This document shows positions 10,477 to 36,322 of a stretch of 64,000 bases of DNA, piece by piece. Within the stretch, counting starts at the first letter, position 1, and each line of letters opens with the position of its first letter. Both the position numbers and the translations under genes were made by a program. The notes beneath the pieces are model-generated. The model had not been told where the DNA came from, did not search any database, and worked only from the letters and a program-made list of their open reading frames with translations. Source of the DNA: Bacteroidales bacterium (GTDB taxonomy: Bacteria > Bacteroidota > Bacteroidia > Bacteroidales > UBA932); contig JAFXPV010000093.1 in the NCBI GenBank assembly GCA_017527625.1, positions 1 through 64,000 of the forward strand, written 5' to 3'.

Positions 10477-10723
10477 TTTTTCTCCCCCTGTCGCTGCGCG
10501 ACATCCCCCTCTTTGTTACTGGGGCCCTGCCCCAAACCCCGCCGCTACGGCCTGCTATCAGCACATACTTCGCCTCACGGCCTTCGCTAGCGCCTGCAGG
10601 CGCCTTGTCCTGTCCTCCGTACACATCGCACACTGCGCCACGGCGCTGATGCGCCCTGTTAGTAATTTTGAATTCAGTTTCTCCGGAAAAATTGCTAACT
10701 TCAAACATCTAAAAAACTACCGT
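10477..10723. other. GC-rich non-coding stretch, no gene recognised
   Basis: This stretch has several short palindromes, including GCGCCTGCAGGCGC near 10592 and TCGCTGCGCGACA near 10490. Open frames on both strands lack recognisable motifs and run into the terminator or the signal peptide. It may be an intergenic repeat of the genome. A weak -7-like box, TAACTTCA (10696-10703), precedes the glycosidase gene. Confidence 0.4.
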
Positions 10724-13033
10724 ATGAAGGCTTTTAACCGTTATATACTATATCTGGCCTGCTTGTACGCTGTTCTTGCGGCTGGATGTACTCCCCGAAG
10801 CGAGAAAGAAATAATCTCTGCGTTTGACAATCCTCCGCAGGAAGCCAAGCCGGTAATGATCTGGCAGTGGATGGACGGCTGGGTCACCAAAGAGGGCATC
10901 ACTCACGACCTTGAAGCATACGCGGCAGCCGGGATCGGCGGTGTGCAGAACTTCCAGGTAGGAGGCCCGGAGCAGACAGAATTCCTGTACGAAAAGAATC
11001 CGATCGCTTCCCCGGAGTGGAAGGAACTTATGCGCTTCGCTATGCAGGAATGCACACGCCTGGGGCTTACTTTCGGCACTCATAACTGCCCCGGCTGGTC
11101 ATCGAGCGCGTATGTCGACATTACACCTGAATATGCGATGCAGGCTCTGGTCTGGACGGCAACAAAGGTACAGGCCGCTCAGACTGGCGTGCGCCTGGCG
11201 CAGCCGGAAACAAATCTGGATTTCTACCGGGACATCTGCGTGCTGGCCGTGCCGGATGGCAAGACCGCTGTAGCGACAGCAGACGTTGTGGACCTTACGG
11301 GAAAGATGGACTCGTCTGGAAGGCTTGACTGGGCGCCGGAGAGCGGACGCTGGACTGTCCTGCGTTTCGGTTATACTCCGTCCGGAAGGCGGAATGCCTC
11401 CACATCCCCCGCATCCGGTGCAGGTCTCGAGTGCGACAAAATGAGCCGTGAAGCAGTGCACCGTTTCTTTGAAGGTTATCCCACGATGATTCTTGAAATA
11501 GCAGGTGAACTGGCCGGGAAGACTCTGGTGAATTTCGAGATTGACAGTTATGAGCAGCACAGCCAGAACTGGACTCCGCGTATGGAGGAGGAGTTCGCCG
11601 CACATCGCGGCTATGCGCTGCGCAGCTGGCTGCCTGCGCTCGCCGGAATCCCGATGGAGGGCAAGGAACAGTTCGAGGAAGACTGGAAGGCCACTATCGA
11701 GGACCTCTTCGCCGAGAACTATTACGCATATATGTCTGAACTGGTGAAACAGACTCCCGGTATGAGGCTTCTGATCCAGCCCTACGGAGACCCGCTCAAT
11801 CCGGAAAAGGTCGCAATGCAGGATGAGGATTTCATACTCTGCGGCGAGTTCTGGACCAACCCTCCTACCTGGGGCGGACGCAGCATCTACCAGATATCCG
11901 AACTGGCTCATAAGATGGGCCGCCGCGAGGTCTATGCCGAAGGTTTCACCTGCTGGCCGCTGAATGCCTGGGAAGATGATCCCTTCAGTCTCAAGGTGAT
12001 GGCCGACAAGGTGTTCTGCGTAGGAATCAACCGGCTGATGCTGCACGCCGGCGCAGCCAATCCCTGGCCGTGGGCAGAACCCGGTATGACCTTCGGCCAG
12101 TGGGGCACGCAGTTCACTCCCGGCAGCACCTGGTGGAAGGCTGGCGGGGCAAAAGCTCTCTTCAACTATTTTGCAAAGTGCCAGGCTTTGCTTCAGCGGG
12201 GAGATTTCGTCGACAATCAGGTCGAAGGAGACATCCTTTGGATCCATCGCCGCGACGCGGACATAGATATCTATTTCGTTTCCAACCAGGATGCCGAAAA
12301 GGCAGTGACGGCAGACCTGCCGTTCATAAAGGGCCTGGTGTTGGATCCGGGCGGCTCTGAGTTCGTCGTCCTGCACGGCGACAAACGGCTGCCTGTGACT
12401 CTCAATCCGGGCGGAGCGCCTTCATCCCTGGCGCTCACTCCCCGACAGACGCTCGAAGGTCCCTGGACAGTGAACTTCCCCGAAGGACTCGGAGCACCCG
12501 CTCAGATATCTATGGAAAGTCTTACGGACTGGAAGGACAACCCTGAGCCTGGAGTGAAGTATTTCTCCGGCACTGCAACCTACCACAAGACATTCCAGGC
12601 AACAAAGCCTTCACGGGGACAAAAGACCTTCCTTGACCTCGGTGAGGTGAACAATCTGGCTGAAGTCTTCATCAACGGCGTTTCGTGCGGACTGTTGTGG
12701 CGTCCGCCCTTCGTGGCTGATGTAAGCGCTGCGCTGAAGGATGGGGACAATGAACTGGAAATCCGTGTCACCAATCTATGGGTAAACCGTATGATCGGGG
12801 ATGAATTCGAACCTGACGACATTGTCTGGGGTGAACCTTTCAGGTATTCTCACGCTCCGGGCAGTCCGATGGTGGGCAGTATGATGAAGGAAGTTCCGCA
12901 GTGGCTTGAAAACAATCAGCCCCGCCCTTCACAAGGACGCCACGCCATCGTCAATTTCAAGTTTTTCAGCCGTTACGCTCCGCTTCAGCCTTCCGGACTG
13001 ATGGGTCCTGTGAGGTTAATGTCTTTGAATTAA
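10724..13033 (+). CDS. GH106-like glycosidase, lipoprotein
   Basis: A 769-residue protein. The start is set at ATG 10724, because this gives a lipoprotein signal peptide with LAAGC (Cys22), whereas the in-frame start at 10649 does not. The N-terminal half has GH106-type signatures: VMIWQWMDGWVTKEGITHDL, an AGIGGVQNF strand, and FGTHNCPGWSSSA. The C-terminal ~150 residues form a GH2-type sugar-binding beta-sandwich (LGEVNNLAEVFINGVSCG). GH106 members release alpha-L-rhamnose. At 769 residues it is shorter than many family members, so specificity is uncertain. It is likely on the periplasmic or outer-membrane face and co-transcribed with the GH115 gene 12 bases downstream. Confidence 0.82.
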   Translation: MKAFNRYILYLACLYAVLAAGCTPRSEKEIISAFDNPPQEAKPVMIWQWMDGWVTKEGITHDLEAYAAAGIGGVQNFQVGGPEQTEFLYEKNPIASPEWKELMRFAMQECTRLGLTFGTHNCPGWSSSAYVDITPEYAMQALVWTATKVQAAQTGVRLAQPETNLDFYRDICVLAVPDGKTAVATADVVDLTGKMDSSGRLDWAPESGRWTVLRFGYTPSGRRNASTSPASGAGLECDKMSREAVHRFFEGYPTMILEIAGELAGKTLVNFEIDSYEQHSQNWTPRMEEEFAAHRGYALRSWLPALAGIPMEGKEQFEEDWKATIEDLFAENYYAYMSELVKQTPGMRLLIQPYGDPLNPEKVAMQDEDFILCGEFWTNPPTWGGRSIYQISELAHKMGRREVYAEGFTCWPLNAWEDDPFSLKVMADKVFCVGINRLMLHAGAANPWPWAEPGMTFGQWGTQFTPGSTWWKAGGAKALFNYFAKCQALLQRGDFVDNQVEGDILWIHRRDADIDIYFVSNQDAEKAVTADLPFIKGLVLDPGGSEFVVLHGDKRLPVTLNPGGAPSSLALTPRQTLEGPWTVNFPEGLGAPAQISMESLTDWKDNPEPGVKYFSGTATYHKTFQATKPSRGQKTFLDLGEVNNLAEVFINGVSCGLLWRPPFVADVSAALKDGDNELEIRVTNLWVNRMIGDEFEPDDIVWGEPFRYSHAPGSPMVGSMMKEVPQWLENNQPRPSQGRHAIVNFKFFSRYAPLQPSGLMGPVRLMSLN

Positions 13034-13045
13034 AAAGCGAATGCA

Positions 13046-15364
13046 ATGAAATATCGTAGTATTGTTCTTTCTGTAGCAATTCTTTCAATCTTGTGCGCCT
13101 GCAGCAGAGGTGCATTCATAATTGACGGGAACTCACGGGTGACAGTCTCGGTCGGTATTGACGATCCGGTCGTCGGGACTGCCTTGGAAATCTTCTCCGG
13201 AGACATATCCAATGTCCTTTCAGCAACCTGCAGCGAAGCGGGTCAGGATGCACAGATCCTGGTGGTCAGTGCCGACGACCCTGCGTTTGCTTCAGATCCT
13301 GATGTGGCTTCCGTAGCAGGCTTGCACGAGGCTTTTCTTATGAAAGTCCTGCCTTCAGGCCAGCTGCTGATCGCGGGCAGTGACGGCCACGGCGCAGCTT
13401 ACGCCCTTATGGAACTCTCCCGGATGCTTGGCGTTTCGCCGTGGGAATGGTGGGCTGACTGCAGCCCTGGCGTGAAGTCGCAGTTCGTTCTGAAAAAGGA
13501 CTTCAAAGTGACCCACGCGCCTTCAGTGGCATATCGTGGCATCTTTATCAATGATGAAGATTTTGCCTTCATACCGTGGGTGACCGGTAATCTGGAGCCG
13601 ACAGACATACCCGGCAGGATCGGTCCGCAGACCCATTCCAGGATTTTCGAATTGTTGCTGAGGCTTCGGGCCAATACGTTCTGGCCGGCTATGCACGGCT
13701 GTTCAGTCCCGTTTTTCCTGACGGAAGAAAACCGTGAGGTGGCGAGGAAGTATGGAATCTATATCGGCACCTCCCACTGCGAACCTATGGCCAGCAACGC
13801 CAACGGTGAATGGCAGGTGAGGGGTAAAGGGGAGTACAACTTCATAACCAATCGTGACAACGTGATGGATTTCTGGACAGACAGGGTAGAGGCTGTCAAG
13901 GATCAGGAGATAATCTACACCCTCGGAATGAGGGGCATCCACGACGGACCGATGAGCGGTGCGACCACTCCTGAGGAACAGAAATCGGCTCTCGCAGAAG
14001 TAATTGCCGCCCAGAGAGCGCTTCTGGCAGACAGAGTCGATGCCGATGTAACTCGTATTCCCCAGGTCTTCATCCCTTACAAGGAGGTTCTGGATGCATA
14101 TGAAGCAGGGTTGGAAGTCCCTGACGACGTGACCCTGATGTGGTGCGACGACAATTACGGATATATCCGGCACTTCCCGACTCAGCAGGAAAGGGAGCGT
14201 GCCGGCGGCAACGGCATCTACTATCACGTTTCCTACTGGGGCCGTCCTCACGACTACCTCTGGCTCGGTACGTTCTCTCCTGCGCTGCTTTACCAGCAGA
14301 TGGGACTGGCTTTCGACAAGGGTATCCGCAAGATGTGGATTCTCAATGTAGGTGATATCAAGCCCGAAGAATATCAGATCGAACTGTTTATGGATATGGC
14401 CTGGGATATGGACTCAGTCCGCAAGGAAGGCTGGGAGGCGCACTGCCGTGCCTTTCTGGAGAGGGAATTCGGTGCCGGAATAGCATCCGCAGCCTTGCCT
14501 GTGATGATGGAACATTACCGTCTGGCATACATCCGCAAGCCTGAATTTATGGGGGCGACGAGAGAAGAGGAACGTGACCCGGCCTACCGTATCGTCAAGG
14601 ACCTGCCCTGGGGCGAGGCGACTATCCGTAAAAGGCTGGAGGACTATGCCTCGCTTTATGCTCAGGCCGAAGCCCTTGGAAAAAAGATTGCGCCTGAGCG
14701 GCAGACGGCATTCTACCATCTGGTACAGTATCCGGTCCAGGCAGCGGCCAAGATGAATGAGAAGGCCCTGAAGGCCCAGCTCGCCAGACACAATATGGCT
14801 GACTGGTCTGAGGCAGATGCGGCGTACGACGCAATACAGGATCTGACGGCCCGCTACAATAAGGGCAAATGGGACGGAATGATGAATGCTGCGCCCAGAA
14901 GACTGCCTGTTTTTGCACGCTTTCCCCACGAAAACTCTGCAACGGCTCTGGCTGCGGAACCTCTGGTGGAGGTGCAGCTGGACGGATGTGATGCCAGAGG
15001 AGCCGTCCAGCCCTGCGAAGGACTCGGGCATAACGGGCGTGCTGCGATGCTGCCCGTCGGCAAGCCTGTGACGTTCAAATTCAAGTCATCAGACGATGCA
15101 GTGCTTCTCTCCTTGAGGATGGTGCCTTCCCATCCGGTGTCCGGGACCCAGTTGAGGCTGACCCTTTCAGTGGATGGCTCGCAAGAAATGACGTTCTCTT
15201 ATGAGACTTACGGCCGCAGCGAGGAATGGAAAGAAAACGTGCTGAACAACCAGGCCGTGCGGGATACCATCGTGCCGCTGTCCGGCTCCGGAAAACATAC
15301 CCTGACCATCACGGCTCTGGACGAGGGAGAAATCCTCGACAGGATTCTGATTTGCGCAAAATAA
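13046..15364 (+). CDS. GH115 alpha-glucuronidase (xylan side-chain), lipoprotein
   Basis: A 772-residue enzyme with lipobox LCAC (Cys19). Family GH115 is recognised from AYRGIFINDEDFAFIPW, the HGAAYALMELSRMLGVSPWEWW region, FWPAMHGCS, GTSHCEPM, GMRGIHDGPMSG, MWCDDNYGYIRHFP and MWILNVGDIKPEE. A C-terminal beta-sandwich follows from about residue 620. GH115 enzymes remove (4-O-methyl-)glucuronic acid from xylan, including from internal xylose units. It lies between the GH106-like and GH43 genes, indicating use of glucuronoarabinoxylan or a related decorated polymer. No SusC/SusD pair or regulator lies beside it. Confidence 0.92.
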   Translation: MKYRSIVLSVAILSILCACSRGAFIIDGNSRVTVSVGIDDPVVGTALEIFSGDISNVLSATCSEAGQDAQILVVSADDPAFASDPDVASVAGLHEAFLMKVLPSGQLLIAGSDGHGAAYALMELSRMLGVSPWEWWADCSPGVKSQFVLKKDFKVTHAPSVAYRGIFINDEDFAFIPWVTGNLEPTDIPGRIGPQTHSRIFELLLRLRANTFWPAMHGCSVPFFLTEENREVARKYGIYIGTSHCEPMASNANGEWQVRGKGEYNFITNRDNVMDFWTDRVEAVKDQEIIYTLGMRGIHDGPMSGATTPEEQKSALAEVIAAQRALLADRVDADVTRIPQVFIPYKEVLDAYEAGLEVPDDVTLMWCDDNYGYIRHFPTQQERERAGGNGIYYHVSYWGRPHDYLWLGTFSPALLYQQMGLAFDKGIRKMWILNVGDIKPEEYQIELFMDMAWDMDSVRKEGWEAHCRAFLEREFGAGIASAALPVMMEHYRLAYIRKPEFMGATREEERDPAYRIVKDLPWGEATIRKRLEDYASLYAQAEALGKKIAPERQTAFYHLVQYPVQAAAKMNEKALKAQLARHNMADWSEADAAYDAIQDLTARYNKGKWDGMMNAAPRRLPVFARFPHENSATALAAEPLVEVQLDGCDARGAVQPCEGLGHNGRAAMLPVGKPVTFKFKSSDDAVLLSLRMVPSHPVSGTQLRLTLSVDGSQEMTFSYETYGRSEEWKENVLNNQAVRDTIVPLSGSGKHTLTITALDEGEILDRILICAK

Positions 15365-15416
15365 CACTTATATTTGTAGAAACGCACCATATCTGTAAGG
15401 ATCAACTTTATTTATT

Positions 15417-16388
15417 ATGAAAACTCCGAAATACATCTTCCCTTCTGATTATATGGCAGACCCGTCTGTGCACGTATTTGACGGCAGACTCTATGTCTAT
15501 CCCTCACACGACTGGGATTCAGGCGTGCCCGAGGATGACCTCGGCAACCATTTCAATATGAAAGATTACCACGTGCTCAGCACTGACGACGTGGAAAACG
15601 GCGAATTCAAGGATCACGGTGTAATCTTGAAACTGGAAGACATTCCCTGGGCAAAATGCCACCTTTGGGACTGCGACATCGCCAAGAAGGGTGACAAGTA
15701 CTACCTCTACTTCCCGGCAAAGGACAAGACCCACATCTTCCGCTGCGGTGTTGCCGTGGCCGACAGTCCCGTAGGTCCGTTCATTCCCCAGCCCGACCCG
15801 GTAAGGGGCTCTTACAGCATCGACTACTGCATACTGGAAGACAAAGGCGAGTACTATTTCTATTTCGGAGGAATCTGGGGAGGTCAGCTGCAGCGCTACC
15901 GCAACAACGACGCCATCGAGCCTATCAAGCTTCCGGCCGACGACGAGCCGGCTCTCTGCCCCAAGATTGCAAAACTTTCCGACGATATGCTGCAGTTCGC
16001 AGAGGCTCCGCGGGACGTGCAGATTCTGGATGCTGACGGCAATCCTCTCAAGCACGGCGACCCTCACCGCTTCTTCGAGGCCACCTGGGTCCATAAATAC
16101 AATGGAAAATACTATCTCTCATACTCAACCGGAGACACCCACTTCCTCTGCTATGCCATAGGTGACAATCCTTACGGTCCCTTCACATATCAGGGAGTCA
16201 TACTCACCCCTGTAGTAGGCTGGACTACCCACCACTGCATCGTGGAGTTCAAGGGCAAATGGTACCTCTTCCATCACGACTGCGTTCCGAGCAACGGTGT
16301 GACGTGGCTCCGCAGCCTCAAGGTGGTTGAGCTCGAGTACGAACCTGACGGCCGCATCAAGACCATCAAGGGTACAGCCGACGTATAA
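15417..16388 (+). CDS. GH43-family glycosidase (beta-xylosidase/alpha-L-arabinofuranosidase type)
   Basis: A 323-residue five-bladed beta-propeller. The catalytic base lies in YMADPSVHVFDGRLYVYPSHD and the pKa-modulating Asp in SIDYCILED; the acid lies around FFEATWVHKY. TTHHCIVEFKGKWYLFHHD near the end is typical. No signal peptide is present, so it should act in the cytosol on imported oligosaccharides, unlike the two lipoprotein enzymes before it. The family hydrolyses beta-xylosides or alpha-arabinofuranosides; which one applies cannot be told from sequence. The 52-base gap upstream contains no clear promoter, so it may belong to the preceding operon. Confidence 0.92.
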   Translation: MKTPKYIFPSDYMADPSVHVFDGRLYVYPSHDWDSGVPEDDLGNHFNMKDYHVLSTDDVENGEFKDHGVILKLEDIPWAKCHLWDCDIAKKGDKYYLYFPAKDKTHIFRCGVAVADSPVGPFIPQPDPVRGSYSIDYCILEDKGEYYFYFGGIWGGQLQRYRNNDAIEPIKLPADDEPALCPKIAKLSDDMLQFAEAPRDVQILDADGNPLKHGDPHRFFEATWVHKYNGKYYLSYSTGDTHFLCYAIGDNPYGPFTYQGVILTPVVGWTTHHCIVEFKGKWYLFHHDCVPSNGVTWLRSLKVVELEYEPDGRIKTIKGTADV

Positions 16389-16408: not shown

Positions 16409-16645
16409 TCAGGCTGACTTGCGATAGTCGATATAGGAAACGATATCGTTGATCGTCGTGAAGTTTTTGAGGTCACCGTTCGGAATGGAAATTCCGAAGC
16501 GGTCCTCTATGCTGCCAACCATTTCTATGAATACGAATGAATCCACACCGGCAGTAGCCTTGAAAGATTTGTCGGTTTCGATTTCTTCCACAGGATAGTC
16601 TACATAATCCTGTATGATATCCAGTAATTGAGTTTTAGTATCCAT
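16409..16645 (-). CDS. Free-standing acyl/peptidyl carrier protein
   Basis: A 78-residue four-helix carrier protein whose Ser36 (in GVDSFVFIEMV) would receive 4'-phosphopantetheine; the usual DSL is DSF here. ATG 16645 is preferred over the in-frame start at 16678, because it begins right after the ligase stop and removes a basic extension overlapping that gene. It is the last gene of an operon with an AMP-ligase, a condensation-domain protein and a secreted repeat protein, so it is a dedicated carrier and not the fatty-acid-synthesis AcpP. The ligase probably loads it, and the condensation protein uses the acyl thioester. Confidence 0.88.
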   Translation of the reverse strand: MDTKTQLLDIIQDYVDYPVEEIETDKSFKATAGVDSFVFIEMVGSIEDRFGISIPNGDLKNFTTINDIVSYIDYRKSA

Positions 16646-16647
16646 TA

Positions 16648-18381
16648 TCACATAAGGTTCAGACCGTTTCCGGAGCATTTCGAAGGCAGCTGTGTACGCT
16701 TGATCTTACGGGTCGATGTCTTCTCATATCCGGTGTCCGGCAGTTCAACATATTCTATTCTCTTGTAATCGGGGAGTTCCTCATTGACCTTTTCCATATC
16801 TGCAACTATTGCGGTATGGTCGGCGCGGCGTTCGGCGTCGCTGATATACAGTCCGGCGCAGAGGACCTCGCGGGGAGCGTGTCCCGAATTATATTCACAT
16901 TGGTAGACGACGATGTCGTCGGCATAATCGAGGTGTTTCTCGATAACGTTCTCCACTTCTTCGGGACATACGTTCTTGCCGTTCTGAAGGACTATGGTGT
17001 TCTTCTTGCGGCCCATCAGGAAGATGCGGCCCTCGCTGTCGATGCGGGCGCTGTCGCCGGTATTGAAGAATCCGTCCTTTCCGAACACTGCTGCGGTTGC
17101 CTCAGGGTCTTTGTAATAACCTTTGGCCACGCTCTTGCCCTTAACGCATAGTTCACCGATGCCGTTTTCGTCGACATTGGCCAGCCGTACCTCCAGTCCG
17201 GGACATTGGCGGCCGACGCTCAGGTGTTCCTTGAGGGTATCGGAATTCATAGAGATCAGCGGTCCGCACTCGGTGATGCCATAGCCGTTCTGAATGCCGA
17301 TGCCAAGGTCGTTCAGCCCTTTGATGACGACGGGGTTGAGCATAGAGCCGCCGCAGACGAGCATCACAAGGCGGCCGCCGAACGGCTCATATACATCCTT
17401 GAACAATTCGTGCGTCTTGTCTATTCCGAACTTGCGGAGCAGGTTGCAGAGCTTGATGCCCTTGCGGAGCTTCTCGTCCTTGCCGGCCTTCTTGGCGGCA
17501 GCCCAGATGTTGCGGTAGAAAGCGGTGGCTATCATCGGCACGACGGTCACGATATCAGGCTGGAAGAACTTGATATTCGTCATCATATTGCGCATATTGT
17601 CGTTGATGTAGGTCAGTCTGCCGCAGCCTATACGGGTCATAATATGTGTGTTGATCTCTGTCGCGTGGTGCATCGGCAGCACGCTCATCGAAGTCTGCTC
17701 GCCGACTGTGTGGATGACGTCCATACAGTTGATCATATTGGCAGTCAGGTTGGCATTCGTCAGTACGACGGCCTTGTTGGCGCCTGTGGTGCCGCTGGTA
17801 AACAGTATCTTCGCGGGAGCGTCCAGGTCGAGGTCGATGTTGCGGTATACGCTGTCCTTTTTCAGCGCCGCTCCGGCAGCTACAAGTTCTTCATAGAAGG
17901 GATAGCCTTCGACCTTGCGGTCGATGGTGATGATTGTCTTAAGTTTCCCGCTGGCAGAGCGGGCCTTCTCCAGGCGGTCGAGATGGCCGGCGCCGCATAT
18001 GACTGCGGTTGCATCGCATTTGTCCAGCAGTGTTTCCAGCAGTTCCTGAGGGGCGTTGACATCAATAGGGGTGACGACTCCGACTCCGGAAGATATAGTG
18101 ATGTCTGCTATTACGTATTTCACGCAATTGTCGCTGACGATGGCGACGTGCGCTCCTGCAAGTCCTGCGGCGAGCATTCCGTCGCCGAGGTTCATCACCT
18201 CCTCATACAAGTCGTGGCAGGTGTGATACCTGATTTCCTTGTTTTTGTCGAGTTCAGCCAGTACAAGTTTGTCGGGGATTATGCTGTTGATACGCTCCAG
18301 CATATCGCGGATACTGCGGTAATCTCCGTCGCGGAGGAGGAAATTTGCCTGTATTTCGCGCTCTGAAAGCAGTTTTTTCAT
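16648..18381 (-). CDS. AMP-dependent acyl ligase (ANL superfamily), probable carrier-protein loader
   Basis: A 577-residue adenylating enzyme. Motifs are ILFTSGTTGANKAV (192-205), NGYGITECGP, FFNTGDSARID, LMGRKKNTIVLQNGKNV and the catalytic Lys near the end (TSTRKIKRTQ). The overall order resembles long-chain fatty acyl-CoA/ACP ligases more than NRPS adenylation domains. It would activate a carboxylic acid as acyl-AMP and pass it to a thiol. The ACP gene follows 2 bases after its stop, so transfer to that ACP is inferred. Its start overlaps the condensation gene by 4 bases. The acid substrate cannot be read from sequence. Confidence 0.9.
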   Translation of the reverse strand: MKKLLSEREIQANFLLRDGDYRSIRDMLERINSIIPDKLVLAELDKNKEIRYHTCHDLYEEVMNLGDGMLAAGLAGAHVAIVSDNCVKYVIADITISSGVGVVTPIDVNAPQELLETLLDKCDATAVICGAGHLDRLEKARSASGKLKTIITIDRKVEGYPFYEELVAAGAALKKDSVYRNIDLDLDAPAKILFTSGTTGANKAVVLTNANLTANMINCMDVIHTVGEQTSMSVLPMHHATEINTHIMTRIGCGRLTYINDNMRNMMTNIKFFQPDIVTVVPMIATAFYRNIWAAAKKAGKDEKLRKGIKLCNLLRKFGIDKTHELFKDVYEPFGGRLVMLVCGGSMLNPVVIKGLNDLGIGIQNGYGITECGPLISMNSDTLKEHLSVGRQCPGLEVRLANVDENGIGELCVKGKSVAKGYYKDPEATAAVFGKDGFFNTGDSARIDSEGRIFLMGRKKNTIVLQNGKNVCPEEVENVIEKHLDYADDIVVYQCEYNSGHAPREVLCAGLYISDAERRADHTAIVADMEKVNEELPDYKRIEYVELPDTGYEKTSTRKIKRTQLPSKCSGNGLNLM

Positions 18382-19718
18382 AAGATATCAGAAAGCTTAG
18401 TTTTAGGGTTTGCCAGAACTGCCTCTATGACGTGTATATAGCAGTTATGGAATTCGATGAGTTGTTCCGGAGTCACCATACGGGTCTGGACGTCGTAGGA
18501 GACTTGTATCTCGTCGGTGTTAACGTCGTGGATCAGTGCCATATATGTGACAAGGGCGCCTTTGCCGTTGCTGTAGACCTGCATAGTGACACCTTCGGGC
18601 GTCGCCATAGGTATGAACGAGAAGCAGAAATTGGTGATCTGGCTCAACATCGAGTATTTCCATAACTTGTGCTGCATCGCCTCTACTTCCAGATATGACA
18701 GACGGGTATGCCTGTACAACTCGTTCTGGTCTGCGTAGAAATCTGCGATGTTCTCGTTGAATGAACGGGAGTAATCCACTGTTGTATAAACACTGAGGCT
18801 CTGGACTTTGGTGCCGGCAGCCCGACGGTCCGCAACAGTGCCCCGGCAGTTGAGGAGTTCAAGCGGGAGCTGATAGGGCGCGCGGCCGTTTTTCAGGGAC
18901 GCTGCTATGGCGCAGGTGTAGAAGAAGAACGAATTCATCGTTACGGAATTTTCTTCACACCATTTCTGGGCCAGCCGGGAGATGGCTGCAGGGATGACGA
19001 AACGGTATCCCTGAGTGTCGCAGCGTATCATCAGATAGGGAAGCGCTATGTTGCCTTTGCGTTTGAACTTGAGCCAGCGGTCATTGGCGTCACCGTGGAT
19101 TCCGCAGTACATAGGCGCCTTGCTGTGGCGGTTCTCATAGTAGTCCTTGAAGAATTCGTAATCTTTCTTGGTGGCTGCTTCGTCGGCGCGGTACTCATTG
19201 TCTTTCTTCAGCACAGTTTCAAAGCTTCCGGGGGCTGCAGGGAGTTCAGTGCCGTTGCGCAGTGCGTTGTATATGCCCATAAGGTCGTTTACTAGCACTC
19301 CGATGCCGTAGGTGTCCGCCACCATATGGCTTATCTTGAAAAGAATCATTTCGGCCCCGGACGGATCGGTGACATACACGGGTTCGAGCACGCGGCCTTT
19401 GAAGGCGTCGGTGGGTTTTTTACGGAAACGCTTCATATACGCATCCATTGAGCTTACGCTGTCGAACCTGACAACGGGGATGTCGCCTGTCTTGCGCTCT
19501 GCGTCAATGGTCTGAAGGGTTTCCTTCCCTTTTTTGAAGAAACGGATACGCAAGCAGTCGTTGCGCTCTATGAGCAGATTGATCGAACGTGTCATCAGCT
19601 CCTTGTCGAAGCCTCCGTCTATGGTCAGGGAGAACAATATGTTCAGCACGCGCTTGAACAGCGAGTATTTTGTCTGCAGGTCGATGATGTCCTGCGAGTA
19701 GTTGAATTTCAATTCCAT
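18378..19718 (-). CDS. Free-standing condensation-domain-like acyltransferase
   Basis: A 446-residue protein with the chloramphenicol-acetyltransferase/condensation fold. FKISHMVADTYG holds the H131-x-x-x-D135 catalytic motif, a variant of the HHxxxDG of peptide-synthetase condensation domains with the first His replaced by Ser. Residues 1-110 resemble the donor-side lobe (LLIERNDCLRIRFF) and the C-terminal half the acceptor lobe. Such enzymes join an acyl thioester to an amine or alcohol. It is not fused to other modules. With the ligase and ACP it forms a three-part acyl-transfer set. It overlaps the upstream gene by 10 bases. The product is unknown. Confidence 0.82.
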   Translation of the reverse strand: MELKFNYSQDIIDLQTKYSLFKRVLNILFSLTIDGGFDKELMTRSINLLIERNDCLRIRFFKKGKETLQTIDAERKTGDIPVVRFDSVSSMDAYMKRFRKKPTDAFKGRVLEPVYVTDPSGAEMILFKISHMVADTYGIGVLVNDLMGIYNALRNGTELPAAPGSFETVLKKDNEYRADEAATKKDYEFFKDYYENRHSKAPMYCGIHGDANDRWLKFKRKGNIALPYLMIRCDTQGYRFVIPAAISRLAQKWCEENSVTMNSFFFYTCAIAASLKNGRAPYQLPLELLNCRGTVADRRAAGTKVQSLSVYTTVDYSRSFNENIADFYADQNELYRHTRLSYLEVEAMQHKLWKYSMLSQITNFCFSFIPMATPEGVTMQVYSNGKGALVTYMALIHDVNTDEIQVSYDVQTRMVTPEQLIEFHNCYIHVIEAVLANPKTKLSDIL

Positions 19719-20554
19719 TTGTTCTTGAGTTTTACCAATTCCATATAATCCTGCCTGTCGACAGGAGTTTTTTCTGTCCTGGAGTTATATTTTGACTCTG
19801 CGTACCGGATGATTGCCCGCGCTTCTTCCCTGTCGGAAAGCACTTTCTGCGATGAATCCAGCCAAGGGACAGAAGCGTTGCCTTCGAAGTACGCGTATTT
19901 CGCCGTATTGGATTTGGCCCCGGCTGCGTATTTTTCCCTGTTGGATTTGATCATCTTCTCGCGGTCGGTGGCGTCTTTGTTCCGGTCATAGAGGAGGTTT
20001 GCCAGCCATAGAAGAGTTGAAATCCTTATTTCGTCCTTGGGGATTTTCAAGGCGGCCATATATGCATAGCTTATTCCGGCGTCGTCTGACTTGAGGGGGT
20101 GCGGGATGTATACTTGTGACAGGGCCTCCCAGGCTTCCGAGTAATCTGTCCGTCCCAGTTTGTCCAGAATGGTTTCCAGATCGGAAAGTATCTGGCTGGA
20201 TGCGGCTGCTTGCTGGGGCAGCGGCCTGGTCTGGCAGTCGCGGCCGCGGTTGGCGCTGCGCCACATATAACATTTATAATTGGAGGGATCGGCAGCTATG
20301 CCCTGGTCTGCTGCGGCAATGCCTTGGGCGAACAGACTGCGCTTGGCGTCCTTGCCCTCAGCTGCATCGCCGAGCATCAGATATGCCCTTGCAAGGCGCC
20401 AGTACACCTCAGCTTTCTCTTTGCTGTCGGTTGCTGCAGGCAGCATCTTCTGCAGTTCGTCGAGACTTGCCTTGTAGTCTGCCTTGTGCGAAAACAGATA
20501 GTCCGCATTGGAGAAGTTAAGGGCAAGCAGCACTATGGCCATAATTGTTTTCAC
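19709..20554 (-). CDS. Secreted helical-repeat (TPR-like) protein of unknown function
   Basis: A 281-residue protein with a signal peptide (cut around NFSNA) followed by helical repeats. AEVYWRLARAYLMLGDAAEG and YSEAWEALSQVYIPHP resemble TPR units. Similar periplasmic repeat proteins with a YxxNRGRDCQTRP-like segment occur in Bacteroidales, but I know of no function. The first codon is GTG (20554); ATG at 20542 is an alternative with a shorter signal peptide. It is the first gene of the condensation/ligase/ACP operon, which suggests a role in handling or sensing the product outside the cytoplasm. Confidence 0.75.
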   Translation of the reverse strand: MKTIMAIVLLALNFSNADYLFSHKADYKASLDELQKMLPAATDSKEKAEVYWRLARAYLMLGDAAEGKDAKRSLFAQGIAAADQGIAADPSNYKCYMWRSANRGRDCQTRPLPQQAAASSQILSDLETILDKLGRTDYSEAWEALSQVYIPHPLKSDDAGISYAYMAALKIPKDEIRISTLLWLANLLYDRNKDATDREKMIKSNREKYAAGAKSNTAKYAYFEGNASVPWLDSSQKVLSDREEARAIIRYAESKYNSRTEKTPVDRQDYMELVKLKNKWN

Positions 20555-20665: not shown

Positions 20666-21493
20666 ATGAGCGCATCAAAGCAAGTCACCACAAACTCGTT
20701 AAAGCTGCCCGAGCTGTATGGGAAGTTTACCACGCATCTGTGGTATATGCTGTTCCCGGCTCTCTTTTTCTTTACTTTTATCGTAGTATACAGGCCTTTC
20801 GGCAGCGAAGAGATGCTGGATATGGGCCGTTCCCTGTTCTTTTTCAACACTGCCATAATGATGTGCATCGTACTTGTCACGACGATTCTGACCAGGCTTG
20901 TGTATTTCCTGCTCTACAGGTTCGTCAACCATACCTGGTGGGAGTTTGCCGGCTTCTGTATGCTGGAAATGGTCATCATTACCTACTTCCTTGCGCTTTA
21001 TCTGTTCCTGATGCGCCACGACGGCCGCATTTATTTCGAATATGTGGGTCTGTGCACGCAGTATTCTTTCCTTGTACTGCTGTTCCCCTATTTCGGGATA
21101 ACCATAGTGTGCGCACTGGTCGGAAAAAGAGAGTCCAATATCGCAGAACAGAAGGGGCTTATCCGTTTCAGTGACACTTCCCGTCAGGTCAAGGCCGTGC
21201 TGGACAACAAGTCCATTTTGTATATAGAGGCGAAAGACAACTACGTCATCATCTATTATCTCGACAACGGCAAGGTCAAGAACTACCAGTTGCGCAATAC
21301 GATGAATGCGATAGCTCCTCTGGTGGAACCTTATAATATTTTCCGCTGTCAGCGGTCCTACTACGTCAACCTGTCTCACATCAACGCGCTGCGCAAGGAC
21401 CCCAACGAGATGATCAGCGCCGAACTCGACGCTGACAACATCGTCGTCCCTGTCTCCCGCAAACTCTACCGCGAACTCTCAGCGAAACTGTAG
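20666..21493 (+). CDS. Membrane-anchored LytTR-type transcriptional regulator, copy 1
   Basis: A 275-residue protein with four predicted helices in residues 25-150 and a LytTR DNA-binding domain from about 175. Diagnostic residues include LYIEAKDNYVIIYY, FRCQRSYYVNLSHI and VPVSRKLY. There is no receiver domain, so signal sensing is presumably through the membrane part. ATG 20666 is chosen because the frame continues upstream to 20210 only by overlapping the divergent gene and its promoters. It is divergent from the condensation/ligase/ACP operon and is its likely regulator. It resembles the protein at 45943 in topology and sequence (HLWYMLFPALFF against QLWYIIIIPLFL). Confidence 0.9.
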   Translation: MSASKQVTTNSLKLPELYGKFTTHLWYMLFPALFFFTFIVVYRPFGSEEMLDMGRSLFFFNTAIMMCIVLVTTILTRLVYFLLYRFVNHTWWEFAGFCMLEMVIITYFLALYLFLMRHDGRIYFEYVGLCTQYSFLVLLFPYFGITIVCALVGKRESNIAEQKGLIRFSDTSRQVKAVLDNKSILYIEAKDNYVIIYYLDNGKVKNYQLRNTMNAIAPLVEPYNIFRCQRSYYVNLSHINALRKDPNEMISAELDADNIVVPVSRKLYRELSAKL

Positions 21494-28601: not shown

Positions 28602-29606
28602 ATGAAAAAACAATTATTGATTATCGCGGCTCTGGCTATGATTACCTGTGCCTGCGACAAGGAAAACCAGTGCAAGACCTGTAAAGAAGGGAAACCCGTC
28701 GAGGTCACAGTCCAGATCAACGGAACATCGATGACCAAAGCCACGGGAAACACTTATGCGAACGAATCCAAGGTAAACAGCCTCCAGGTGCTGGCATTTG
28801 ACACAAATGGTGAGATCGAAGCATACCGGAGCGTTGATAACGAAATGAGTCTGACGCTTATGGCTACGTCGGGAGAGAAAACGGTATGGGCAGTAGTCAA
28901 TGCCCCTTCACTTGAAAATGTCACAACGCTGGATGAATTGAGCAGTACGCTGACCCGGCTTGAAGACAATGCTCTCGACAGTTTTGTGATGACGGGGTCT
29001 GTCTCGGAGGAATTGACGGACGGCGCCGTTCTGGCAATCACAGTAAAACGTATCGTAGCCCGTGTATCAGTAGCCAAGATAACTAGGGCTTTCCCTGATA
29101 CGCCGACTTATGAGGGTAAGACACTGAAAGTTACCGGCATCTATATGCTCAACGTAGCGGGTGCGGTAAACTACGCCCTCACAGGAGAGCCGTCAGAGTG
29201 GTACAATAAATTGAATCACGAAGATGCAGTGGCCGATGCCTTTCTGTATGATGCTCTTGACCAGACCATTGAAAACAATGCTTCGTATGAAGTTGAACAC
29301 GCATACTATCCATATCCCAACAGTGTTGCGGCAAGCGTGAAAGATCTTGATGATGAGAACAGAGGTACCTGGAGCGGCAGGAAGTCAATCCTTTGCATCG
29401 AAGTGGAATTTGACGGAGTGAGCGGGTATTATCCCATTGAACTGCCTGTCATTGAGCGCAACAAAACCTATACAATCGACGAGGTAGTGATAACCCGTTC
29501 TCCTACAGACAAACCATATGATCCCATCGACACCGGAGTGGCAACTGTAAGCATCACCGTCGAAGAATGGGAACTTGGACTCAGTCTAGGCACAGTCACT
29601 ATTTAG
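28602..29606 (+). CDS. Mfa1/FimA-type fimbrillin, lipoprotein precursor
   Basis: A 334-residue precursor. The signal peptide ends in ITCAC, where Cys16 or Cys18 could be lipidated. A T-K-A motif (45-47) sits where Arg-specific proteases cut P. gingivalis FimA (R46-A47). Then come fimbrillin strands KVNSLQVLAFD, KRIVARVSVAKI, GIYMLNVAGAVNY, HAYYPYPN and the C-terminal strand VEEWELGLSLGTVTI. Pilins of this class polymerise at the cell surface by strand exchange after lipoprotein export and proteolysis. It is one of three fimbrillins here; whether it is shaft or tip cannot be decided. Confidence 0.87.
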   Translation: MKKQLLIIAALAMITCACDKENQCKTCKEGKPVEVTVQINGTSMTKATGNTYANESKVNSLQVLAFDTNGEIEAYRSVDNEMSLTLMATSGEKTVWAVVNAPSLENVTTLDELSSTLTRLEDNALDSFVMTGSVSEELTDGAVLAITVKRIVARVSVAKITRAFPDTPTYEGKTLKVTGIYMLNVAGAVNYALTGEPSEWYNKLNHEDAVADAFLYDALDQTIENNASYEVEHAYYPYPNSVAASVKDLDDENRGTWSGRKSILCIEVEFDGVSGYYPIELPVIERNKTYTIDEVVITRSPTDKPYDPIDTGVATVSITVEEWELGLSLGTVTI

Positions 29607-29630
29607 AATCACCACTAAAAAATAACAACG

Positions 29631-30677
29631 ATGAAAAAAACAATATTATCAGCTGCCTTTGCAGCTCTGATGCTCTTCACCTCGTGTGATGAGAAGATCG
29701 ACGTCCCTTCACAGGCAAGTGCGCAGAAGGTGATTCTCGATGTCACAATTGTTCCTGACGGCAATCCCACCAAGGCAATCGGCACGGTGAATACCGGCGC
29801 CAGCAACAATGACACAGAAGGAGAGACGAAAATATCCACACTGCAGATATTCGTATTTGCAGGTGACGTAAGAGACGGATACGTATCCAAGAATGTCACT
29901 ACAAGCGCGCAGGTGGAATGTACGGCAGGCACGCGTGACATTTATTGCATCGTAAATGGTCCGGCTACGCTCAACTCCATCGTCTCCAAGACGGCATTGC
30001 TGGCGACTGTGTCCACATTGGTCAACAACCACGATAATTTCGAGATGGTGGGATTTAAAACGGGCCAGACTATTTCAACGAACAGCAGCGTCTCCATCCC
30101 GGTAAACCGTATCGCTTCCAAGATTGTCGTAAAAAGTATTGAAAATGCACTTCGTTCGGGCGGGCCGATTGCAATCAAAAAAGTGTATATCACCAATGTC
30201 GCAGGACAGTTCAACTACGGTCTCGATACCTATGCTGCCGCATCAGGGACGTGGTATAACAAGGGTGGATACCGTGCCAACGGCAGTATCGGTAATTTCA
30301 CCCAGGACATTTTTACGGTGAACGTGGCTGCAGGGTCGACCTATGAAACCAATCATTACTTCTATGCGTACCCTAACAACTATCCCCAGGCGGATTATAA
30401 CGCTACGTGGGCGCCCAAGAGGACAATGCTGGTAGTCCAGATACAGTATAACGGCAAGTTGTACGACTATCCTGTAGACCTGGGAGTTGACCTCGAAAGC
30501 AACAAGATGTATGTGATCAACAACCTCAAACTGGTCAATCTGGGCAACCTGGATGACGGAAACGAGGGTGGTGCAGACGAAGAGAATCCCGTAACCGGAG
30601 TCACGGCCCAAGTTACTATTGACATAAAGGATTGGACGGTAGTGACACTTGGAACCAACGGAGGAATAACCATTTAG
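29631..30677 (+). CDS. Mfa1/FimA-type fimbrillin, lipoprotein precursor
   Basis: A 348-residue precursor with lipobox LFTSC (Cys19) and T-K-A at 47-49. Fimbrillin strands are KISTLQIFVFAG, PVNRIASKIVVKSI, KKVYITNVAGQFNYG, NHYFYAYPNNYPQ and a last strand IDIKDWTVVTLGTNGGITI, very like the preceding gene's end. It has the best balance of length and conserved strands for a major shaft subunit, but this is inference. The gap to the previous gene is 24 bases. Confidence 0.88.
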   Translation: MKKTILSAAFAALMLFTSCDEKIDVPSQASAQKVILDVTIVPDGNPTKAIGTVNTGASNNDTEGETKISTLQIFVFAGDVRDGYVSKNVTTSAQVECTAGTRDIYCIVNGPATLNSIVSKTALLATVSTLVNNHDNFEMVGFKTGQTISTNSSVSIPVNRIASKIVVKSIENALRSGGPIAIKKVYITNVAGQFNYGLDTYAAASGTWYNKGGYRANGSIGNFTQDIFTVNVAAGSTYETNHYFYAYPNNYPQADYNATWAPKRTMLVVQIQYNGKLYDYPVDLGVDLESNKMYVINNLKLVNLGNLDDGNEGGADEENPVTGVTAQVTIDIKDWTVVTLGTNGGITI

Positions 30678-30681
30678 AAGA

Positions 30682-31683
30682 ATGGATAAGTGTTTGTTTG
30701 CTGTATTGTGCGGCTTGATGCTGTTTTGCCCGGCCTGTGACAGGCCGCAGGCAGGCGCGTCGTCGGAAACATTCGGCGTGACGTTCGTCCTGGACAGTGA
30801 TGGCGCGGGGTCAACCCGCGCTGCCACTGCCGTGGACGAGGCCTCCATCGAGAATGCGTGCCTCTACTTCGTAGGTGCTGCCGGTGCCGTAGTGGATGCC
30901 GTGCCTGTGGCGGGCAATACTGTGTTCAGGAATTTTGAGGCCGGGACATACAAAGTATATGCAGTAGCCAATTGCGGCACGACTGTGAGTTCCTTCTCGT
31001 GGGAGAGTGAGATAAACGGATATGTACGTTCTCTTGCTTCAGAAGCTGGTGCCTTCTCGATGGTAGCGGCCAAATCCTTCAGTGTGCCTGAAGATAAGAC
31101 CTGCAGCCTGACAGCTGAACGTCTTGTCTCAAAAGTCGAGATAGACAAGATCAGCGTCGATTTTTCACAATATCCGGACCTCACGGCTAAGACCTTTACC
31201 ATAGACAGTATATATCTTGTCAATGTAGCTGGACAGTCGACTCTTGCAGACGGCATAGACTACATTCCGCCGGCATCTTCGTGGATAAACAAACGCGGCT
31301 ATACGCAAAGTCAGTCAGACGCTTTGGTGTGCGAGGCGGTAAGACGGACAGTGACGCGATCCAGTCCCCATACGGTTCCTCACTACTTCTACTGTTACCA
31401 GAACAACACTTCGACGGATTCCCACGCTGCAGCCTGGAGTGCGAGGCACACACGACTTGTCGTTGCGTGCACTCTCGGCACGGCAAAAACCTATTATCCG
31501 ATTGACATAACCGGACCAGGCGGCAGGCTTGCCAGAAACTGCAGATATGTAATAAATGAACTTGTCATAACCGATTTCGGCAGCAGCGGACCCGATCAGG
31601 AAATAACCGGTTCAATGCCGTATCACTTCTCTTCACAAGTGAAGACGTGGGAAGGGACACATACAGTAAGTGAGAGATTTTAA
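30682..31683 (+). CDS. Fimbrillin-like subunit with divergent C-terminus
   Basis: A 333-residue lipoprotein precursor (FCPAC, Cys19) with T-R-A at 45-47. Strands SIENACLYFVGAAG, AERLVSKVEIDKI, DSIYLVNVAGQ and HYFYCYQNN match the other two fimbrillins. Its end is different: VKTWEGTHTVSERF replaces the TVTI/GITI strand. A changed last strand suggests a terminal or minor subunit that does not pass on strand exchange in the same way. It begins 4 bases after the previous gene. Confidence 0.82.
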   Translation: MDKCLFAVLCGLMLFCPACDRPQAGASSETFGVTFVLDSDGAGSTRAATAVDEASIENACLYFVGAAGAVVDAVPVAGNTVFRNFEAGTYKVYAVANCGTTVSSFSWESEINGYVRSLASEAGAFSMVAAKSFSVPEDKTCSLTAERLVSKVEIDKISVDFSQYPDLTAKTFTIDSIYLVNVAGQSTLADGIDYIPPASSWINKRGYTQSQSDALVCEAVRRTVTRSSPHTVPHYFYCYQNNTSTDSHAAAWSARHTRLVVACTLGTAKTYYPIDITGPGGRLARNCRYVINELVITDFGSSGPDQEITGSMPYHFSSQVKTWEGTHTVSERF

Positions 31684-31698
31684 TAATCAGGAATAACA

Positions 31699-32505
31699 AT
31701 GAACAGTCAATTTCGCCGCAGCTTGACCTGCACCATAACAGTGCTGGCTATGTTTCTGTTGCCACCGTCGTGCTCAGTAAAGGAAGACAGAAGAATCTGC
31801 CCTTGCATTTTGGAAGTGGCTTTTGCAGGCAGGGAAAGGATCGAGGACCCGGTCACTCTGGTAGGTTGGAGTGACAGGGAGGTGTTCGACGACAGAATCA
31901 ACACGGTTGATTATCCGGATGTCTATACGCACAATACTCCCAGGTCTCTGATTGCTTTCGGGGCGGTCCAGGGGCTTGACAAGTGTGTGCGGAAGGGGCA
32001 TACTGTAATTATACCGACTGGCATTGAATGCGATTCGCTGTACGCATACAGTGATGCCGTCGATTGCAGCGGAGAAACGGCGCGCACTACCGTAGTGTTC
32101 CATAAACAGTTTGCGACAGTACATATGGGCATAATCAATACAGATTTTGATGCTGATGATTTCTCATTGGTCTTGAAGAGTCACAGTTGCGGCATTGACC
32201 TGCTTACCTGTGAGGCGACAGAAGGAGAATTCAGGTGTATTCCACGCTTTGAGGATGATAACAAATACAGATGCAGGATCTGCCGTCAGAGAGATGACAG
32301 CATTGCCTTGGACGTTACTCACGCATCCGGGGACAACGTGACCTTCCCATTGGGGAAAGTTGTCAGTTCCATAGGATACGATTGGAATGCGGTTGACCTG
32401 CAGGATATATTCATCACCCTTGATATAGCTAAGGGGCGTATCGGAGTCGGGGTGGCCGGTTGGGAAAGCATAGAAGATTTCGAATTGTCAACAGTTGAAC
32501 TATAG
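31699..32505 (+). CDS. FimB/Mfa2-family fimbrial anchor lipoprotein
   Basis: A 268-residue lipoprotein with PPSC (Cys25) followed at once by SVKEDRRICPCILEV, the FimB/Mfa2 family signature. Unlike the fimbrillins it has no T-K/R-A/S motif, consistent with staying lipid-anchored to hold the pilus base and limit its length. The last strand segment IGVGVAGWESIEDFELSTVEL ends the domain. It lies between the fimbrillins and the large adhesin, the usual order. Confidence 0.88.
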   Translation: MNSQFRRSLTCTITVLAMFLLPPSCSVKEDRRICPCILEVAFAGRERIEDPVTLVGWSDREVFDDRINTVDYPDVYTHNTPRSLIAFGAVQGLDKCVRKGHTVIIPTGIECDSLYAYSDAVDCSGETARTTVVFHKQFATVHMGIINTDFDADDFSLVLKSHSCGIDLLTCEATEGEFRCIPRFEDDNKYRCRICRQRDDSIALDVTHASGDNVTFPLGKVVSSIGYDWNAVDLQDIFITLDIAKGRIGVGVAGWESIEDFELSTVEL

Positions 32506-32515
32506 GAGAGCGGAT

Positions 32516-35500
32516 ATGAAAAAGATATTAGCAGTTATCGCGGTAATGATGGCATTGCTTGCCTGCACGAGGGAAGAAAACCAATCTGGCGGCAAGTGCG
32601 ATGACGGATTGAGGAGCTTTGTGGCTTTTGGTTACCACGTCAAGTCGTTAAGTTCGCCTGAAACCAGAAGTGCCTTCATCGCACCTGCATTTGATGACAG
32701 CAAGGTGTCAGGCATTACTGTGGCAGTCTATGATGGAACGACCGGGTCGTTGCATTACAAGAAGCATTTCACTTCTGGCTTCGACTCGATGGAAATTCCT
32801 TTGCGCAGCGACAAGGTATACTACCTTTATGCGCTTGCCAATATGGGAGACCAGACTGCGAGGCTTCCTTCTTCCAGAAGTTCACTGCTGTCGGACTTCA
32901 CATATACAGTTCCTTCGTATTCGGATGTGAACACCAGGGGGATACCGATGACTGGCAGTATAGAAAACTATACGCCCTCAGGCGCAGGGGAGGAATTCGA
33001 ACTAAGACGCTTGTTTGCAAAGGTTACGTTGAACGTCACAACCGCTTATGACGGAGGTACGGATGCAGGGGTCAAGGTGACCAACCTTAAGGTGGGCAAT
33101 GCAAACGGCATTCTCTCAGCCTTCGGCGGCAGCCGGCTGGCTTCCGCCACAAACCGGCTTGCACAGGATGACTACAGTGCCAACAACTCGGTCAATGCTT
33201 CTTCTGTGGTATTTTACGTCCCTGAGAATCTCCAGGGAAAGATTGGTTCGGCGGCATCTTCCCACGACAAGAATCCTGACCGCGATGACGCCGTCAGAGC
33301 GGTAAAGGACCTGTTGACTTATATTGACGTTACAGTTACGGCCAATTCGGTCTATTATGTAGGAACTATACACTATCGCAGCTACATCGGCGCTGATGCC
33401 AAGACCGACTTCAATGTGGTCGGCAACTACAGGTATGTCTGGAATATGACTTTGACCGAAGACGGTCTTGTTTATGACGACTGGAAGACAGACCAGACGG
33501 ATTTCAATGTCATAGACCACTATCTGAGTTTCGATGCAGATGTCTACCCTGTAAACCCGCGTAAGAGTGTAGTTTCTACAATAGAATATGAAGACAGCTA
33601 TCACGGCAGGGTCAAAGGGCAGGGAGGTGTTGCCGGTCAGGGGCTGAGGTGGACGGTAATACCGCCGGCCTCATTGCCGCACGCTGCAAGTGGCAACAAC
33701 TATCTTGACTATGCTTACGATGCCGGAACTGATGCAGTCACTTGGACTCCGACCCGTTATGCTCCGCCGGGAGATTATGCCATAACCGTAACGACGACGG
33801 ATGGCAGGTATTACGACGATGCGGTCCTGCATATCAACGATACGCGGTGGATAAATACTGATGCTGCATATAATAACCGCCCGCGAGAGACGACGATCAA
33901 TCGTGCAGAGGTCAATTCTACGACAAAGTGGAACATAGGATATGCTTATGGAGACCAGTCTGTTTCAGACTCTGGAGCACGGGACGCTACATCCCCCAAT
34001 TCGGGCTATTATGCAGGGCTGAGCATAGCTGACGACTGGACCCAGCACATCGGATTCAAGTTGCAGGGCGATGCGTCGCAGTATCTGACTGTGAGCGGCA
34101 CGCCCGATGGCAATGGGGTGAGCTATTCCTTGTCGCAGGACATTCTTATGGGTGATTACAAATACGTGGTCTACTGGAAAGATACCTGGGACGAAAGCCG
34201 TCAGGACTACGCAAAGAAAGATTCTGCCATTCTCCACGTGACTGGAACATATATGGGCAGTATGTATCTCACAGCGTCAAAATGGACCGTCACGGTGGGA
34301 GAGACGATGGAAGTAAGGGCAGTACCCCGCGGCAATCCTTCTTTTCCGAAAGTAGAGTGGGAAATCCTTGACGGAGACGACAAGGTAAGCCTGGTATCTA
34401 CCGCCAATCTTAACGCAGCACTGACAGGACTAAGGGAAGGAACGGCCACTATAAGGGCCAGGGCAGTCGATGGAAGCGGAGTCGTTTCTGAAAACAGGTC
34501 GATAACTGTCACCAACCCTCCGGTGAGCCTCACGGTAATCCCGTCGCAGTCAACTGTCTATATGGGGACTTCTTTGGCATATACTGCCATAGTTACGTAT
34601 AGTGACGGTTCAACGGCAGATGTTACTTCAAGTTGCATCTGGAGTACGGAATCAGCCGCGATAGCGAGATTTGACAGTGCTATGCCGAGAGGCGTCGTCG
34701 TGGCGCAGAACACAGCGGGGACGGTTGCCATAACAGCAAGGTATTCAGCTTTGGGGAAGACAGTAAGCGGCACTGCGACATTGAACGTTGTGTCAAGACC
34801 TGCGCCCATATCGATAGAATGCCTTGACGGGCCGCAATATATTTTTCGCAATGATACTTATGGCTCAGGCAGTTATACAGTCACAAATATCAATGATTTG
34901 AGACTGAAACTGAATTATACTGACGGAAGCAGCATTACGGGCACTTTCAGGGGACTGAATGTCAACCTTGCATCAAGCAATCCGGATCTTGTGCTTGCGC
35001 TTGACCGGAGCAATAAAACCCTGCAGGCCTATGACAAAGGCACAACGACAATTACAGTGACTTGTGACGGCCGTCAGGCAAGTTTTCCGGTATATGTCAG
35101 CAAAGTGAGGCTGGTACCCTGGCGGATTGACCTGACCACGGGAGAATCTCAAAAAGCAGAATTCTTCCTGACGGGGTATGATGAGTCGGCTGAACACGCT
35201 GCCGAAGTCCTGTGGAATACTGCTGACTCCGGCATAGCCGAAGTCCGGACCGGCTATGGAACATCTACATATGTCCGCTCAAACTACGCCGGCTCGACCA
35301 TATTGACGGCTGATTATACCGGCAGTTATGGCCATACTATGATACAGGCTCCGATTTATGTCAGCGGAAGCAACGACGTAAGCCACGAACTGAAAGTTAC
35401 TCCGGACCCTTGTGCACTCAACACTGGAAGTTCGCAGCAGCTTACGGCGAAATATCATACCATTACCGGTGGAGCCGATGACGGCGGAGTAGATGTGACA

Positions 35501-36301: not shown

Positions 36302-36322
36302 ATAACCAACAAGAAACAAGCT

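Follow-up and report, generated by a model that had tools for sequence, protein, structure and literature searches.

The closest described systems to the operon analysed here are the fatty-acid-amide (FAA) systems of gut Clostridia, which are built from free-standing A, ACP and C proteins named OaaA, OaaACP and OaaC (PMC13142362). In the available part of that preprint, the FAA pathway of Coprococcus eutactus is described as having been reconstituted in vitro, and the products of Clostridial FAA systems are reported to be active on human receptors (PMC13142362). The same part of the source presents OaaC as a homodimer that takes free amines and opens upon binding of holo-ACP, and gives the motif of the OaaC (CFAA) clade as (D/H)HxxxD followed mostly by S, A or G, with other residues making up about 5% of the logo after the aspartate (PMC13142362).

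The window, a 64,000-nucleotide stretch of Bacteroidales DNA, carries four genes lying head to tail on the minus strand at positions 16409-20554. The first (19709..20554, 281 aa, with a GTG start) encodes an apparently exported TPR-type protein of RMDN/BstC-like kind, a putative periplasmic lipid carrier. It is followed by a free-standing condensation domain (C protein; 18378..19718, 446 aa), which we propose to be an acyl-ACP:amine amide synthase acting through H131 and D135, by an AMP-forming acyl ligase proposed to load the carrier (16648..18381, 577 aa), and by a dedicated acyl carrier protein (16409..16645, 78 aa) with its attachment serine in GVDSF. Pfam searches assigned the C protein to Condensation (PF00668, E = 1.3e-23), the ligase to AMP-binding (PF00501, 3.7e-54) and the carrier, searched as an 89 aa frame, to PP-binding (PF00550, 3.7e-14). 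The TPR and C frames overlap by 10 bases and the C and ligase frames by 4, and the carrier ATG at 16645 lies 2 bases past the ligase stop. We moved the carrier start to this codon from 16678, as the more likely choice on sequence comparison, because, of the 9 relatives that have a carrier, 8 show carrier ORFs of 76-79 aa and because the 89 aa alternative runs into the ligase gene; L001, the closest relative, also has this longer frame. Ka/Ks values of 0.04-0.11 for all four genes against L002 and L014 (75-88% protein identity; the third, more distant relative, L016, was saturated and gave no ratio) argue that these are not chance ORFs. The original prediction had read the locus as four overlapping or nearly touching genes for a secreted repeat protein, a stand-alone condensation protein with its HxxxD motif kept, an adenylating ligase and a private carrier, and each of these identifications agrees with the results given here and below.

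Like OaaA/OaaACP/OaaC in the available part of their description (PMC13142362), the operon has a separate ligase, ACP and C protein, with no acceptor carrier or thioesterase. The differences are that the Oaa proteins belong to Clostridia whereas the operon is found in Bacteroidales, with two membranes, and that the operon adds to the FAA-type trio a fixed fourth gene, for the exported TPR protein, of which the available part of the FAA description makes no mention (PMC13142362). The earlier view that no characterised pathway has such a make-up thus falls for three of the four genes, the three enzymatic components being of a kind already known; the suggestion that separate proteins could make an N-acyl or O-acyl compound fits the parts that we recognise by sequence in the ligase, carrier and C protein. 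The novelty lies in an exported TPR partner that is fixed in the unit, in the occurrence in Bacteroidales and in a separate C lineage. A related system in rumen Bacteroidales would widen the range of FAA chemistry to include livestock and Gram-negative symbionts of the gut, and with a fixed exported partner the exit of a lipid from the cell becomes a question approachable through one protein.

The best sequence match of the C protein among solved structures was OaaC (PDB 12KH), at an identity of about 20%. We scored the C family against 12 sequences of OaaC type, 27 NRPS sequences from Bacteroidota and, by sequence, the PDB, and found that the OaaC and window families outscored, against each other, all 27 NRPS domains compared, making them nearest each other among the C groups compared. 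In an unrooted tree that took in close OaaC relatives only, the 12 OaaC-type proteins, 19 window-type proteins and 27 NRPS domains formed three separate groups, each set off by a split with a support of 100, and the window protein fell outside the OaaC clade; the truncated NRPS loci L022, L033 and L045 were left out of both tree and scoring. Because an unrooted tree with three groups cannot alone show a sister relation, this relation is drawn from the 12KH match and the family scores, by which the window C protein appears nearer to OaaC than to the C domains of NRPSs. Among the fold-search matches listed for the C protein 12KH was absent; the kinship is one of sequence.

H131 and D135 are invariant in all 44 aligned C proteins, and OaaC shares the catalytic histidine and aspartate. 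The motif of the window protein is S-H-M-V-A-D-T and that of its family SHxxxDT: a serine precedes the catalytic histidine in 19/19 window-type proteins, and the residue after the aspartate is T in 13, S in 2, I in 2, D in 1 and L in 1. The OaaC-clade motif (D/H)HxxxD(S/A/G) is therefore not found in the window protein, though the catalytic residues are retained, and the alignment has a nine-column gap where OaaC has an insertion. Given the SHxxxDT motif and the low identity, we file the protein, as far as its sequence allows, as a variant rather than as a member of the OaaC clade. A search of PHROGs gave it one weak match with no function. The condensation fold is also common to VibH and to the starter C domains RzmA and CDA C1; these belong to NRPS systems, and the RzmA structure carries a C8-CoA donor. 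VibH and the starter C domains have the canonical HHxxxDG motif, and VibH acts on a free amine. An NRPS fragment was considered as the identity of the operon and dropped. GlsB is a GNAT-type enzyme. The doreamides of B. dorei (glsAB cluster, in the accessible part of PMC12746155) were likewise considered as a counterpart and dropped.

The original prediction had proposed a gene-neighbourhood check, and this showed that the four genes are conserved together. Reading one locus per genome with a C gene, in 10 genomes of the closest relative's family, we found the order TPR-C-A-ACP in 10/10 loci (L001-L003, L014-L020), the carrier of L020 being off the contig end. In the four closest loci, as in the window, GH43 and LytTR genes lie near the operon. 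Among the distant loci, six in number (C identity 48-59%), no flanking gene was common to one another or to L002, L003 and L014, within at most 5 kb by BLAST at 1e-8, and the 13 window neighbours that we tested were all absent from their flanks; in these comparisons the flanking ORFs were picked by length, so that genes in shorter frames could be missed, and the flanks were limited by the contigs, being small for L018 and L020. Pairwise distances of the four proteins correlate with r of 0.73-0.88 (8 representatives, 7 for the carrier), the points being from related sequences and not independent. A TPR profile at E<=1e-8 found 11 of the 249 family genomes, namely all 10 with the C gene and one other, G213. 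In the latter, an operon-type TPR gene (contig C142, bases 3-428) is cut at base 3, on the side where the C gene would follow, and the C gene was found nowhere else in the MAG; the truncation is probably an assembly break through the operon. TPR-C-A-ACP is one conserved unit, and at the loci read it consists of four genes only, with no permease, acceptor carrier or thioesterase. The MAG of the closest relative has one PF00668 match.

Taking these results together, the reading that we favour, with a probability of roughly 0.55, is that the operon makes an N-acyl amide in the cytoplasm and that a dedicated periplasmic TPR carrier hands it to the envelope. The steps of the pathway are drawn from family knowledge and from the available part of the OaaC preprint (PMC13142362). 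The ligase would adenylate a carboxylic acid, most likely a fatty acid, with ATP to give an acyl-AMP, and the acyl group would pass from the ligase to the private carrier's phosphopantetheine arm. On the C protein, by way of H131, a small amine that diffuses freely would attack the acyl thioester, and the amide formed would leave that protein directly, so that neither a thioesterase nor a second carrier would be required. Being amphipathic, the amide would enter the membrane, to be picked up on the periplasmic side by the TPR protein, which as a carrier between the membranes could bind either this product or the fatty acid on which the pathway draws. This reading leaves passage across the inner membrane unexplained, since the unit includes no exporter. 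We infer the fatty-acyl donor, the amine acceptor, an amide rather than an ester, the periplasmic location and lipid binding of the TPR protein, and the direction of transport. It is more doubtful that the ligand of the TPR protein is specifically the N-acyl amide and that the protein takes this amide to the outer membrane or outside, uniting synthesis and delivery in one unit. If true, ruminant gut Bacteroidales would have a two-membrane branch of fatty-amide biosynthesis in bacteria, equipped with a periplasmic shuttle of its own, a four-gene unit encoding both the making and the delivery of a possibly host-active lipid.

A hydrophobic N-terminal stretch was seen, by hydropathy and by eye, in 11/11 TPR homologs, which points to an exported, periplasmic protein. 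In L002, L003 and L014 this stretch comes after an inner ATG, with which the GTG of the window gene aligns. The predicted model is all-helical and TPR-type (mean pLDDT 94.7). There was no Pfam match at E<=0.001, the score against PF21033 (RMD1-3) being 14.8 bits for a curated cut-off of 26.7, and PHROGs gave no match; a precomputed PF21033 label is carried by all 74 TPR homologs, including one that is 99% identical. More distant PF21033-labelled TPR proteins (P0292-P0314, 50-73 bits), one of them named from Spirochaetales, represent by sequence a wider bacterial RMDN-like family, and the operon would tie a TPR subfamily of this kind to a defined lipid pathway.

PTPIP51, BstC, TPAT and TatT ranked among the model's best structural matches, and five of the six best rows were lipid or ligand carriers, a resemblance that is read with regard to how widely TPR folds match in structure searches. 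PTPIP51/RMDN3 is a human mitochondrial membrane protein whose TPR domain is 13-15% identical to the window protein. With BstC, a bacterial sterol transporter and TRAP T-component, and with T. pallidum TatT the likeness is one of fold only, as none of the four Pfam rows at E<=10 was the TRAP T-component/TPAT family. Nor was a BstA/BstB-like partner seen in the unit, and partner transporter genes of BstC/TatT type were found neither there nor among the Pfam-searched window neighbours; for the distant loci, the flanking sequences were compared by BLAST among themselves only. The model thus suggests that the TPR protein may bind a lipid. TPR repeats usually bind proteins, however, and 2pl2, a TPR structure with no stated role, scores level with the lipid carriers, as would be expected if the protein were a protein-binding or structural partner with no part in lipid handling. 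We regard this as unlikely, given the predominance of lipid and ligand carriers in the best structure rows and the co-occurrence of the TPR gene with the C gene, in frames that overlap or touch, which argues that it takes part in the pathway.

As regards the TPR step, the main rival keeps the same chemistry but turns the protein inward, so that it would gather fatty acids of host or dietary origin in the periplasm for supply to the ligase. According to Chang et al., Clostridial FAA systems reportedly use exogenous fatty acids. BstC/TatT-type proteins belong to a superfamily implicated, in the accessible part of PMC10942540, in small-molecule import. Since the conserved unit of four genes has no permease, we give inward supply only a small chance.

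TSGTTGANK and the C-terminal lysine are conserved in 11/11 aligned ligase sequences, and the attachment serine of the carrier is kept in 10/10. The top two NCBIfam models of the ligase are long-chain fatty-acid ligases, followed by MenE, all below cut-off; among solved structures it matches luciferase-type and MenE enzymes best. The window has a second AMP-binding enzyme (44099-45742, minus strand), with which the operon ligase shares 27% identity. From these comparisons a fatty acid is the likely donor. Stand-alone C proteins such as VibH and SgcC5 are known for ester formation or for coupling non-fatty (aromatic or hydroxy) acids, and by this precedent the window C protein could do either, which we consider improbable. 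Searched with NCBIfam as the 89 aa frame, the carrier scored 53.5 bits against fatty-acid ACP models (below cut-off), 51 bits against its second-best model, the cispentacin carrier AmcB (cut-off 80), and 24.5 bits, a weak similarity, against DltC. The AmcB match was set aside because the unit has no other cispentacin gene, and D-alanylation was also considered and dropped. The general logic of Dlt, namely ligase, private carrier, acyltransferase and exported protein, is mirrored by the gene set and, with the DltC similarity, could suggest transfer of the carrier-bound acyl group to an amino lipid or amine-bearing glycan of the envelope, with the TPR protein as periplasmic partner. This is the least probable alternative, as MBOAT and DltD-like genes are absent from the unit, the carrier scores better against the fatty-acid ACP models, and OaaC, in the available part of its description, uses free amines (PMC13142362).

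The C gene is present in 10 of 249 genomes of the closest relative's family. In an order-wide sample it was found in 1 of 393 genomes, the reference itself, and in a class-wide sample 1 of 345, once more the reference, exceeded 700 bits and so stood above the scores of NRPS level, whereas 19 further genomes with a match reached at most 74 bits; there was no second locus of the operon type outside the family in these two samples. Restriction to one family is provisional, because these are samples only and 349 clusters of a protein database match the C protein at E<=0.001. The best 120 of the 349 are 57-97% identical, and as that search admits proteins of similar length only, their stand-alone size is partly a matter of construction. 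One protein with 97% identity bears the name 'hypothetical protein [Bacteroidales bacterium]'. Yak rumen, water-buffalo rumen and water-buffalo omasum are the sources of three named relatives, all of them Bacteroidales MAGs, and the window bacterium is probably also from a rumen. Whole-genome statements here concern the relatives' genomes, mostly MAG-sized and of unstated completeness. Among the matches listed in literature searches, no title named a Bacteroidales version of the operon.

Viral contigs gave 2 and 20 pattern matches for C homologs, with 0 confirmed. Plasmids gave 16 records against the window C protein; of the best 10 of 16, nine were partial (34-48%) and to NRPS-type or RenE genes, and one, from Nostoc, had 94% coverage at 20.6% within an 853 aa condensation protein. 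A full-length plasmid match to the OaaC relative P0121, one of two Bacillus records, looks like an NRPS, given its HHxxxDG motif and run-on into adenylation-type sequence.

Divergent from the operon, 111 bases from its first gene, lies a LytTR-domain gene (20666..21493, plus strand; start called by eye, domain search on 20741-21493) with apparent membrane helices by reading. By BLAST it stands beside the operon only in the four closest relatives, and for this reason we do not count it as core; it is a possible local regulator. Convergent with the operon are glycan-degradation genes (10649-16388, plus strand) of GH106, GH115 and GH43, of which GH43 remains near the operon in the four closest relatives. 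Further along, at 28602-38443 on the plus strand, is a cluster that combines fimbrial matches of FimA/Mfa type with a Big_2/DUF4906 protein of 1268 aa.
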